Below the pieces are notes generated by a model. That model searched no databases. It was not told where the DNA came from and worked only from the letters and a program-made list of their open reading frames with translations. A stretch of DNA of 64,000 nucleotides, from NCBI RefSeq assembly GCF_016634425.1, contig NZ_JAEPES010000002.1, forward strand, positions 372,001 to 436,000, written 5' to 3'. This document shows, piece after piece, positions 39,142 to 42,108 of this stretch. The position numbers were made by a program, and so were the translations under genes. How positions within the stretch are numbered: the first letter of the stretch is position 1; each line of letters starts with the position of its first letter. Source of the DNA: Lacisediminihabitans changchengi (lineage in GTDB: Bacteria > Actinomycetota > Actinomycetes > Actinomycetales > Microbacteriaceae).

Positions 39142-39960
39142 TCAGCTGGCGAGGGCGCCGATGATGCGCAGGATGCTGCCGAGGTCGTCGACCGCCGCTT
39201 CCGGTGCTGCTGGTGCGAACTCGGTCACCCCGGCGCCGGCCAGCGGGAGTGCTGCCTTTGCGGCGGCGATCACCTCGAGCAGTTGCGGAAGAGTGACGCC
39301 GAAGGGCTCGGGAAATCCGACACCGTCGATGAACGCGGGGTCGAGCACGTCGAGGTCGACGTGGATGTAGACCCGGGAGGCGCCGGTGGCGACCAGCGAC
39401 TCGGTGACGGCCGCGGCATCCAGATCTTCGGGCGCGATGACGCCGATGCCCGCGGATTGCGCGTACTCCGCCTCGGCCTCGTCGAACGCGCGGGTGCCGG
39501 CGAGCACGAGGTGGCGCGGGTCGAGCGGGATGCTGGGGGTCGCGACATCCGGTCCCTCGCCGAGGAGGGTGCGCACCACCATGCCGTGAAAGGCGCCGGA
39601 CGGCGACGACGCGGGGGTGTTGAGGTCGGGGTGCGCGTCGAGCCACAGCACCGCCGTATCCCCGGTTTCGATGGCCCGCCCGATCGGTGCCAGTTCGACG
39701 CCGCAATCGCCACCGATGGTGATTGCGAGGCCGGTCGACATCGAGATCTCGGCCAGCAGCGCGTCGCGCACGGCGACGATCGAGCTGAGCCGCTGCACCG
39801 GAGTGCCTTCGTCGCTTCCCGCGCCGCTCGGGATATCGACGCGAACCGTGGATGACACGGGGAGGTCTTCGCGGATCGCCTCGGCTCCGTCGATCAGTCG
39901 CATTGCGCGCGAGGAGCCGGAGCCCTGCCATTGGGGGACGACGAAAAAGGTGGCAGCCAC
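39142..39960 (-). CDS. Arginase/agmatinase/formiminoglutamase (ureohydrolase) family protein with a GGDC motif
   Basis: A 272-residue ureohydrolase-fold protein. Two of the three metal motifs are normal: LWLDAHPDLNTP (Asp-His-Asp) near residue 125 and YIHVDLDVLDP near 212. The first motif, normally GGDHS with a metal-binding His, reads GGDCGVELAP, so one Mn ligand is Cys. A loop FHGMVVRTLLGEG follows the second motif as in arginases of actinobacteria. The substrate may be arginine, agmatine or formiminoglutamate, or another guanidino compound. The GTG start is inside the 3' arm of an apparent terminator and has its own -10 in the loop. Confidence 0.82.
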   Translation of the reverse strand: MAATFFVVPQWQGSGSSRAMRLIDGAEAIREDLPVSSTVRVDIPSGAGSDEGTPVQRLSSIVAVRDALLAEISMSTGLAITIGGDCGVELAPIGRAIETGDTAVLWLDAHPDLNTPASSPSGAFHGMVVRTLLGEGPDVATPSIPLDPRHLVLAGTRAFDEAEAEYAQSAGIGVIAPEDLDAAAVTESLVATGASRVYIHVDLDVLDPAFIDGVGFPEPFGVTLPQLLEVIAAAKAALPLAGAGVTEFAPAAPEAAVDDLGSILRIIGALAS

Positions 39961-39981
39961 ACCCTAAGTATGGCTGCCACC
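39944..39981 (-). terminator. Intrinsic terminator overlapping the promoter and start codon of the arginase-family gene
   Basis: On the minus strand GGTGGCAGCC (39981-39972), a 13-nt loop and GGCTGCCACC (39958-39949) are followed by TTTTT (39948-39944). It lies 36 bp after the stop of the F420-type reductase. The bases of the 3' arm and T-run are also the first codons of the next gene (GTG GCT GCC ACC TTT TTC). Confidence 0.75.
39958..39974 (-). promoter_or_regulatory. Leaderless -10 (CATACT) inside the terminator loop
   Basis: Read on the minus strand, CATACT then TAGGGT then GTG. The stretch CCATACTTAGGG followed by one base and GTG also occurs in front of the SIP gene at 33414-33429. Confidence 0.6.
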
Positions 39982-40016
39982 TCGGTCGTTCGTGTGGCTG
40001 GTTAGTGCGACCGTGG

Positions 40017-40658
40017 TTAGACGGTGCGGGGTGCCTTTGCCAGGTTCGCCTCGAGCTCGGCGACGTTCTGGCGGCTGACGTACGCGGGGCGGTCACGCTC
40101 GAAGCGCCAGCTCTCGCTCAGCGGGCTGGCGTCCACGGCGTCGAAGCCGGCCTTGTCGAGGAAGTCGATGAGGAACTCGGCTGCCTCGGGGAAGTCGGAG
40201 GCGATGGGCAGGGCACGGCGGTTCGGGGTCCCCGCCGGGGTGCCGTCCGTGGTGATGTCGCCGGACATGATGTTGTTGAAGCCCTTGACCACGCGCGAGG
40301 TCGGCAGGTGCTCCTGGAGCATGCCGGACACGGTGGTGGTGCCCTCGTCGAGCGCCGGGATCCGACCGTCACGCTCGAAGTAGTAGTTGTTGGTGTCGAT
40401 CACGATCTTGCCGGCGAGCGGCTCGACCGGAACCTGCGTGTAGTTCTTGAGCGGTACGGTGACGACGGCGATGTCCGCAGCCTCTGCAGCCTCGACGGCG
40501 GTAGCCGCGCGCGCCTTCGGCCCGAGCTCCGCGACGAGGTCGCTGAGAGTCTCCGGTCCGCGAGAGTTGCTGATCACCACGTCATAGCCCTGCGTGATTG
40601 CCACGCGGGCGAGCTGGCTGCCGATATGTCCTGCACCGATGAGTCCGATTGTTGTCAT
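40017..40658 (-). CDS. NADPH-dependent F420 reductase-like protein
   Basis: A 213-residue Rossmann protein of the F420-dependent NADP reductase/pyrroline-5-carboxylate reductase-like group. It starts TTIGLIGAGHIGSQLARVAITQGYDVVISNSRGPETL; the NS-R after beta2 contacts the NADP phosphate. VVTVPLKNY and IVIDTNNYYFERDG follow. VVKGFNNIMSGDI and a short helical end complete the fold. I use ATG 40658 rather than a TTG 12 bp earlier; neither has a good ribosome site. Related proteins move hydride between NADP and F420 or reduce other compounds. The gene is followed by the hairpin at 39944-39981. Confidence 0.82.
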   Translation of the reverse strand: MTTIGLIGAGHIGSQLARVAITQGYDVVISNSRGPETLSDLVAELGPKARAATAVEAAEAADIAVVTVPLKNYTQVPVEPLAGKIVIDTNNYYFERDGRIPALDEGTTTVSGMLQEHLPTSRVVKGFNNIMSGDITTDGTPAGTPNRRALPIASDFPEAAEFLIDFLDKAGFDAVDASPLSESWRFERDRPAYVSRQNVAELEANLAKAPRTV

Positions 40659-40717: not shown

Positions 40718-40797
40718 TGTCAGTTCGCGCTGATGTCAGTTCGCGCTGTTGTCAGTTCGCGCTGATGTCAGTTCGCGCTGATGTCAGCGCGAACTGG
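40718..40797. repeat. TGTCAGTTCGCGCTG tandem repeat ending in a palindrome
   Basis: Four 16-bp units TGTCAGTTCGCGCTG(A/T) at 40718, 40734, 40750 and 40766, then TCAGCGCGAACT. The last unit and this complement form a perfect 12-bp stem: AGTTCGCGCTGA (40771-40782) and TCAGCGCGAACT (40785-40796). Related copies lie at 27181-27271. Confidence 0.85.
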
Positions 40798-40805
40798 CAT
40801 AGCGG

Positions 40806-41576
40806 CTACTGCAGCGTGATCGGGGCGACCGGCCCCGTCACCAGGTCGTTCGAGAGAAAAGTGCCAGCGGCATCCGTTCGTCCGAAGTCGATCGCGGCGG
40901 AAACGCCGTAACTACCGGCCCCGACCGACGGCAGGTCGGCGGGGAACGCCTCGGCCAGATCGTCATCAACCGAGCAGCGCACCGGTGTGAACGTCGCCGG
41001 GTAGCTCATCGACGCACCGGGGGCGAGATCGACGGCCGCGACCATCATCACCGTCGCGCCGTTGCTGTGCCAGAGCACCGTGCCGTTCTGCGAGAGAGTG
41101 ATCGCCGGGCTCGCTGCGGTCGTGCCGATGAGCCGCTCGGTTCCCGTGTTCGTCATCGTGACCTGCCCGGTGATGCTCGGGGCGCTCGCGGACGCCGTGG
41201 CCGGAAAGTCGACGGCGAGCACGAGTCCGGATGCGGCCGGCGCCACGTCGGCGAGCGGACCGCCACACAGGTTGATGCGATCGGCGGGAGCTCGCTTCCC
41301 GCCGCTGAACGGAGCTGCGCTCTCGCTGTGCGGGGCGTTGTCGGCACTCGAGGCTGCGCTTCCCGACGACGTCGCGGGCGTGGGGAAAGAACGGATGCCG
41401 GCCACTCCCGCCGCGCCGATCCCCACAACAGCGAGCGTGCTGAGGGCGCCGACGGCCACCTGCTGACCGTGGTGGCGCCGGGCGCTGCGACGCATCACGG
41501 CGCCGAGGTCGATTCTCGGGGTCGTACCGGACGGCTCGCCGTGGAGCATGCCGCGGAGGTCGGATTCACTGAGCAT
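40806..41576 (-). CDS. Membrane protein coupled to an ECF sigma factor (possible anti-sigma)
   Basis: A 256-residue protein: cytoplasmic N-terminal 37 residues (MLSESDLRGMLHGEPSG, then RIDLGAVMRRSARRHHGQ), one membrane segment (about 38-60), a Ser/Ala-rich linker and an extracellular beta-rich domain with ITGQVTMTNTGTERLIGTT and GASMSYPATFTPVRC. It overlaps the sigma gene by 11 bp, so it is translationally coupled and the natural candidate for its regulator. The zinc anti-sigma motif (H-x3-C-x2-C) is absent and the cytoplasmic part is very short, so this is inferred from position. Two Cys (NLCGG and PVRCS) could form a disulfide outside. Confidence 0.75.
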   Translation of the reverse strand: MLSESDLRGMLHGEPSGTTPRIDLGAVMRRSARRHHGQQVAVGALSTLAVVGIGAAGVAGIRSFPTPATSSGSAASSADNAPHSESAAPFSGGKRAPADRINLCGGPLADVAPAASGLVLAVDFPATASASAPSITGQVTMTNTGTERLIGTTAASPAITLSQNGTVLWHSNGATVMMVAAVDLAPGASMSYPATFTPVRCSVDDDLAEAFPADLPSVGAGSYGVSAAIDFGRTDAAGTFLSNDLVTGPVAPITLQ

Positions 41577-42108
41577 TTCTGCCCTCTCTGTCGAAGGTGA
41601 TGTCTGGGGTGTCGAGAGCTGCGCCGAGTTTGCCGAGCGCGTCGCTGACATAGCGCTTGACCGTTCCCGGGCTGATGCCCAGTTGGTCGGCCACATCGGC
41701 GATCGTGAGGTCGTCGTAGTAGCGCAATACGATGCAGGCTCGCTCGCGCGGGCTGAGTAAGGCGAGGTGGCCGTCGAGGTCGACGCGCGCATCGGTGGCG
41801 GGCGCGCTCGACTCTTGCAATTCCGGGGTCGCCGCGAAGTGCTCGATCCGGCGCCAGCGGCTGGTGCGGCGGCCACCGTCGAGATAGCTGTTGAGGATGG
41901 CGCGGCGCACGTATGCCTCCGCGCTTGCCACCGAGAACCCGTTGCGCAGCCGACCGAATGTCTTCACCAGGGCGTCCTGCACCAGATCGGCGGCGTCATC
42001 GTTGTTGCCGCTGATCAGGCGGGCGTAGCGAGTGAGGGCGTCGCCGCGCTCGGCGACCAGCGTCGTCAGGACGGCGCGCCAGCCGTCATCCGTCTGCGCG
42101 GTCGTCAT
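41566..42108 (-). CDS. ECF RNA polymerase sigma factor
   Basis: A 180-residue ECF sigma. Region 2: ALTRYARLISGNNDDAADLVQDALVKTFGRLR (residues 23-55); region 4: LDGHLALLSPRERACIVLRYYDDLTIADVADQLGISPGTVKRYVSDALGKL (about 115-165). No extra C-terminal domain is present. The type resembles the small SigE-like group of Streptomyces and relatives (about 170-180 residues). The membrane protein encoded next overlaps it by 11 bp. A GGAAC motif about 25 bases before the ATG could be a self-recognised -35, but its partner -10 is unclear. Confidence 0.88.
   Translation of the reverse strand: MTTAQTDDGWRAVLTTLVAERGDALTRYARLISGNNDDAADLVQDALVKTFGRLRNGFSVASAEAYVRRAILNSYLDGGRRTSRWRRIEHFAATPELQESSAPATDARVDLDGHLALLSPRERACIVLRYYDDLTIADVADQLGISPGTVKRYVSDALGKLGAALDTPDITFDREGRNAQ

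Follow-up and report, generated by a model that had tools for sequence, protein, structure and literature searches.

How does a gene stay independent of a neighbor that ends just ahead of it? Tandem genes with very short gaps must somehow do so. In the window analyzed here (a 64,000-nt stretch of the Lacisediminihabitans changchengi genome), the stop codon of an oxidoreductase gene precedes the GTG start codon of an arginase-family gene by only 56 nt. The initial annotation assigned to a single hairpin at this junction the terminator of the first gene as well as the promoter and the start codon of the second. We found that an inverted repeat, a predicted promoter and the first codons coincide within a few dozen bases, a segment that likely performs several jobs at once. 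The best explanation, to which we assign a probability of about one half, is that the inverted repeat acts as a read-through block between the two genes and is merged with a leaderless promoter. The features of the locus, in window coordinates, are the following:

39142..39960, minus strand: arginase-family gene with a GTG start, predicted to be leaderless (PF00491, E 4.4e-34)
40017..40658, minus strand: preceding gene in tandem, carrying the 'NADP oxidoreductase coenzyme F420-dependent' domain (PF03807, E 6.3e-20)
39948..39982, minus strand: hairpin core of 12 Watson-Crick pairs, more with G-U (predicted fold and pair counts)
39972..39982, minus strand: 5' arm AGGTGGCAGCC, non-coding, -22 to -12 from the GTG (sequence; identity across nine genomes)
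39948..39958, minus strand: 3' arm GGCTGCCACCT, coding, from the last base of codon 1 to the first base of codon 5
39944..39948, minus strand: T5 run, codons TTT TTC (sequence)
39967..39972, minus strand: predicted -10 element CATACT, -12 to -7 from the GTG (sequence and relatives)

Family searches confirmed the proposed gene identities at the level of domains, PF03807 upstream and PF00491 downstream. The NCBIfam model of NADPH-dependent F420 reductase scores 33.9 bits on the upstream gene, far under its cut-off of 149.8, and none of the arginase/agmatinase NCBIfam models attains its cut-off on the downstream gene. The N-terminus of the arginase-family protein can be aligned across relatives, which, where records are named, are mostly Microbacteriaceae. 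At window 40718-40800, shortly before the oxidoreductase gene begins, 4.4 copies of a 16-bp unit, TGTCAGTTCGCGCTGA, are followed by a partial inverted copy; in the whole genome a 20-base pattern over two units occurs only here, at three places, with up to one mismatch. Two ORFs precede this repeat (window 41566-42108 and 40806-41575), the former of which, judging from its translation, presumably resembles a sigma-factor-type regulator.

A long predicted hairpin across a start codon

On the minus strand the segment runs GGTGGCAGCC (39981-39972), ATACTTAGGGTGT (39971-39959), GGCTGCCACC (39958-39949) and TTTTT (39948-39944), reading ...GAGGTGGCAGCCATACTTAGGGTGTGGCTGCCACCTTTTTCGTC... as a whole. 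Inspection of the sequence confirmed the 10-bp stem, the 13-nt gap and the T5 run, as well as the statement that the 3' arm and the T-run encode the beginning of the protein (GTG GCT GCC ACC TTT TTC from 39960). The perfect Watson-Crick helix is longer than initially described and comprises 12 bp, 39982-39971 with 39959-39948. A very stable hairpin is predicted over 39938-39989, with 12 perfect pairs, or 17 if G-U pairs are counted, and T5 next to it. In the predicted 58-nt RNA fold, the 17-pair run including G-U leaves a 3-nt loop and has a free energy of -36.4 kcal/mol (z -6.5); none of 200 shuffles was as stable. The lowest two pairs of this fold consume the first two T of T5. The hexamer CATACT does lie where it was first placed (39972-39967), but in the predicted fold it falls mostly in the upper stem and not within the loop.

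A generic consensus scan for promoters and terminators returned neither the hairpin nor the promoter of this segment. A comparison with the known RNA families of Rfam yielded six matches at E up to 1 (microRNA and CRISPR-repeat families), all below gathering scores. Nor is the segment a dispersed repeat, as it is single-copy in its own genome. The window also holds a second 9-bp perfect match (39954-40000), formed by CAGCCACAC (40000-39992) and GTGTGGCTG (39962-39954). By pairing with the start region it might act as a competitor of the hairpin, in an antiterminator-like manner; by eye, the gaps in the remaining genus genomes showed no match of this type.

The rarity of the hairpin was assessed over the window and a further 400 kb of this genome (464 kb in total), using a rough purpose-made gene caller and the best candidate start of each gene. 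In stability (-39.2 kcal/mol), the start-spanning hairpin ranks first among the 374 predicted starts. Starts as a group avoid such structure relative to in-gene controls, values of -20 kcal/mol or below being found at 93 of 374 starts versus 179 of 356 in-gene control codons. The locus is likewise first by the longest perfect start-spanning helix, 12 bp compared with 11 bp for the runner-up. The start of the latter (C2:4526) is probably mis-called: its hairpin lies between two genes, and a later start is possible. At that site (L115, 4505-4545), a long perfect hairpin sits just past the stop codon of one ORF and ahead of another, which from sequence resemblance we take to be solute-binding-protein-like and permease-like, respectively. 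The listed contamination of the genome is 11.6%, and an assembly artifact at our locus is unlikely because eight other genomes show the same arrangement.

Conservation of the arms and distribution of the hairpin

The genus set comprised 13 genomes, 12 of which encode the arginase-family protein; the remaining one (G011, 64% complete) gave no match. In all 12 the oxidoreductase gene lies upstream in tandem, at a gap of 16-56 nt. The hairpin is present in nine of these genomes (G000, G001, G002, G003, G004, G005, G007, G008 and G012; hereafter bearers) and absent in three (G006, G009 and G010). Intergenic gaps are 37-56 nt in bearers versus 16-40 nt in non-bearers. In the nine bearers the stem and the -10 element occur together, as the initial annotation had suggested looking for; the other three genomes have stem-breaking differences, which that annotation had listed as evidence against its reading. 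Perfect start-spanning helices were surveyed in 116 distinct loci (12 in the genus and 104 others), with identical loci counted once and unclear starts excluded. A helix of at least 10 bp is present in eight of the 12 genus genomes; G012 has 8 bp and the remaining three have at most 4 bp. The same length is reached at none of the 104 other loci of the gene and at four of 912 control sites (ATG or GTG sites within the genus loci).

The limits of the feature within the group are blurred, because in the arginase-protein tree two stemless loci out of the 104, L033 and L036, fall among members of the genus. This tree places the window's gene beside that of the stemless G009 (98/99). The upstream-gene tree disagrees, putting G009 beside G012, G003 and G007 (92/90). 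G005 and G010 were left out of both trees, and G006 (64 residues only) also out of the arginase tree. Whichever tree is correct, the hairpin is dispensable, with probably more than one loss or gain.

Start-spanning stems were also noticed at some loci beyond the genus. One locus of another genus (L019 of G033, start at 1501) has an unrelated, very stable start-spanning hairpin at the same gene (-40.3 kcal/mol), and a -10-like CACACT lies at the loop; by eye, only a short possible stem is seen in G060, the one further genome of that genus. In genus g99, a GGGAG/CTCCC stem spans the start in three of nine loci (L136, L137 and L138), and L139-L144 fold weaker. One genome of this genus encodes the same protein sequence as Cryobacterium fucosi L071. 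Of the loci assigned to Cryobacterium by name, L071 and L069 have a stem of the same type and L062 has a partial one. In L069, L071, L136, L137 and L138, pairing of GGGAGCATAC with GTATGGCTCCC, leaving one base bulged, would span the -10 and the ATG. Convergence, that is, an independent origin of the hairpin in other genera, is not claimed; at none of the 104 loci outside the genus genomes is the longest perfect helix above 8 bp.

It might be argued that the palindrome has no function and arose by local duplication or template switch on the self-complementary start sequence GTGGCNGCCAC, persisting by chance. Because GTGGCNGCCAC is itself palindromic, its direct duplication gives an inverted repeat, and three of the 12 genomes lack the palindrome. 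However, mean pairwise identity among the nine bearers is 0.91 in the 5' arm (-20 to -12) and 0.33 in the neighboring non-coding stretch upstream (-37 to -22; coordinates of G012 shifted by one base by hand), a contrast that disfavors a chance or mutational origin. The corresponding values are 0.94 for the -10 hexamer and 0.50 for the stretch from -6 to -1. In addition, the center bases of the arms are complementary in all nine bearers and identical in none (A-T in four, G-C in five), and G012 keeps the pairing though its arms are no longer self-complementary. We therefore regard a functionless palindrome as very unlikely.

Covariation was analyzed with five measures for the core ten pairs: 98.9% of their 90 cells are paired, and both partners differ in two pairs, one of them in G012, where an outer T-A has become A-T together with a Thr to Ser change in the protein. 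Slid versions of the core alignment gave at most 74.4% of cells paired and no pair with both partners changed. One of 500 shuffles attained the covariation score and the number of paired cells, and more attained the weaker measures (pairs changed on both sides, 31 of 500; pair types, 481 of 500). Extending the helix by three outer pairs gives 92.3% of 117 cells paired, or 83.3% of 156 if the three non-bearers are included; for these 13 pairs shuffles attained the both-side changes in 123 and the pair types in 483 of 500 cases. Covariation is thus limited and provides moderate evidence: it comes from two pairs, and the kinship of the sequences inflates the remaining measures. The identity contrast between arm and flank is the stronger indication of putative selection on pairing.

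The repeat might alternatively act as a DNA site, either with a dimeric regulator bound to both arms around the -10 or as a cruciform that aids or hinders promoter melting. The dyad is indeed near-perfect and centered on the promoter. Its innermost perfect pair has an identical position in eight of nine bearers, and its unpaired center (-10 to +1 in eight of nine) is close to the stretch melted by RNA polymerase, about -11 to +2. However, copies elsewhere in the genome or genus, as would mark an operator, were not found: the exact palindrome pattern occurs in eight of the 13 genomes, each time only at this locus, which disfavors a regulator site. Allowing one mismatch yielded 12 further places versus 23 for a reversed control, with a pattern that is blind to the G012 version and to other spacings. 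Moreover, the arm sequence changes while pairing stays, the G012 spacer is one base longer, and family searches detected no regulator domain in the arginase-family gene or in three tested neighbors. Overall, a role as a DNA site appears quite unlikely.

Predicted leaderless promoter and possible terminator

All 12 genus genomes have a -10 element at leaderless spacing, in agreement with the initial proposal. It is CATACT in ten genomes and CATAAT in two, at -12 to -7 from the GTG; in G012 it is one base further away. Among 108 distinct loci of relatives (counted without L004 and L010, for which the anchor was too strict, and without L114), the hexamer starts at -12 in 35, at -13 in 20 and at -11 in 11 (66 of 108 altogether), with a single case at any other offset between -20 and -1, using a short list of hexamers drawn up after the sequences had been viewed. 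A broader -10 pattern gave 33, 21 and 11 at the same offsets and at most 10 at others. A Shine-Dalgarno-like pattern is present at 27 of the 108 loci, and inspection of the sequence ahead of the GTG at 39960 revealed no such site at the usual spacing. The position of the -10 element thus supports well the prediction that transcription starts at the GTG itself, producing a leaderless mRNA. Relatives retain this position much more broadly than they do the hairpin, also at loci without one, as expected for leaderless genes.

Leaderless genes are described from Actinobacteria: in Mycobacterium tuberculosis, 22% of 2,524 genes expressed in exponential phase are reported to be leaderless, with TANNNT as the dominant -10 (PMC3898074). 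As in the actinobacterial leaderless genes described in that source, the hexamer here is at a near-fixed distance from the start codon, and a Shine-Dalgarno-like site at the usual spacing is lacking. The locus differs from that description in its hexamer (CATACT, nANNNT, instead of TANNNT). It is also unlike such genes in that its start codon is modeled to sit in a hairpin of the RNA arriving from upstream.

The other putative function is termination. Like an intrinsic (Rho-independent) terminator, the segment has a G+C-rich hairpin past a stop codon, with T5 next to it in the window. A G+C-rich stable hairpin is predicted in all nine bearers (-21.4 to -36.1 kcal/mol for 51-52 nt) and was matched in stability by 0 to 3 of 200 shuffles, in the window by none. 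Unlike in an ordinary terminator, the 3' arm and the T-run are coding sequence of the next gene, and the T-run is not kept in all relatives. The described T5 tail directly follows the 10-bp stem in the window, but among bearers a run of T4 or longer is retained in six of nine, G012 having T3, and G001 and G002 having T2; none of the three non-bearers exceeds T2. A terminator score, based on a classical formula made for E. coli and on the stem end that maximized it, is positive in the six bearers with T4 or longer and negative in G001, G002 and G012.

Codon usage might be taken to favor a selected T-run, as the run is built from codons with low overall usage (by rough gene calls, 9.0% of Phe for TTT and 4.5% of Thr for ACT). 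However, T-ending codons are commoner near starts (in codons 2-9, TTT accounts for 14 of 79 and ACT for 38 of 322), and the T-richness of this segment follows in part from its conserved Phe-Leu/Phe-Val codons. Because TTT and ACT are less rare near starts and the sequences share ancestry, this evidence is suggestive only. A modest tail is nevertheless compatible with termination, since U enrichment is reported to be weak also in Streptomyces lividans, where 194 of 1,640 mapped 3' ends have a G+C-rich stretch and a U-rich tail (PMC6742748). Taken together, the sequence features make termination at this segment plausible.

Since stems outlast T-runs, the closest rival is a role of the hairpin without intrinsic termination. 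It might mark or protect the 3' end of the oxidoreductase transcript, or block only read-through translation, the overlap with the promoter being a by-product of the short gap. This is consistent with the better conservation of the stem than of the T-run, with the negative terminator score in three of nine bearers and, by eye, with a strong predicted hairpin just upstream of the gene in many Microbacterium, Clavibacter and Agromyces loci. It does not account for a T-run of T4 or longer past the stem in six of nine bearers and none of three non-bearers, and we consider it unlikely. In the Microbacterium loci (L041, L046, L057-L060, L079, L080, L082-L084 and L086-L090), the predicted hairpin at the same gene has about -32 to -40 kcal/mol and ends some 18-25 nt ahead of the start. 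Many of these loci have a GGAGG-like site preceding the start, according to inspection by eye of the 104 loci with a protein anchor out of 110 examined.

Proposed read-through block and insulation

If the inverted repeat is a read-through block, as we favor, a polymerase entering from the oxidoreductase gene would copy both arms and the resulting RNA would fold. The folded RNA would be either released at the T-run or left with the GTG locked in the stem. An RNA started at the GTG would escape the block, because it lacks the 5' arm, and could then be translated as a leaderless mRNA.

Modeling of these RNAs gave a mixed picture. In the modeled read-through RNA (-40 to +60), the second and third bases of the start codon have unpaired probabilities of at most 0.02 in all nine bearers; the start codon is paired in two of three non-bearers too. 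In a 60-nt leaderless RNA, every base of the start codon has an unpaired probability below 0.5 in six of nine bearers (0.14 to 0.24 in the window); G001 is mixed, and G003 and G012 are unpaired above 0.7 or about 0.7. Thus, of the original claim that RNA started at the GTG cannot fold, the absence of the 5' arm stands, but the conclusion is too simple, the start codon being predicted mostly paired in six of nine bearers. A clean contrast between a locked and an open start codon is not supported by folding, because the leaderless start is often paired and so is the read-through start of non-bearers. The difference between the two RNAs would lie in stability, in the early loading of ribosomes at the 5' end and in termination.

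The fullest version of the proposal is that some 40 bp serve at once as a terminator, as the promoter and start codon of the next gene and as a lock on read-through RNA, making the gene a self-insulating leaderless one in which the open center of the hairpin corresponds to the polymerase-melted stretch. We put this forward tentatively, as a possibility that is less likely than not. The inverted repeat at the start codon is confirmed, rare and retained by most genus members, and insulation by its predicted hairpin is plausible.

The transposase genes of IS10/Tn10 are protected from outside transcripts by fold-back. Similarly, read-through RNA here would hide the start, and RNA from the gene's own promoter would be without the 5' arm. 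In contrast to IS10/Tn10, the protected gene would be an ordinary chromosomal enzyme gene, predicted to be leaderless and with a possible terminator tail. The proposed insulating role also resembles that of a mobile-element terminator credited with insulator action. Unlike that terminator, for which no such merger was seen, the predicted hairpin here is merged with a predicted promoter and a start codon. The component parts are known. Within the titles and abstract openings searched in the open-licence literature, no terminator hairpin holding the leaderless start of the next gene is described.

The locus makes it testable whether leaderless starts permit terminators that overlap coding sequence. 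If they do, such elements may form a class that can escape 3'-end mapping, since ends located deeper than about 10 bases within the following gene may be filtered out. In one published Streptomyces 3'-end pipeline, an end was allowed to reach no further than 10 bp into the following gene (PMC8780764); under such a rule the ends predicted here, about 13-17 bases inside the gene, would be dropped. For the arginase-family gene the proposed arrangement would mean that a leaderless gene is shielded from its neighbor at no extra cost in DNA, since the leaderless RNA begins downstream of the 5' arm.
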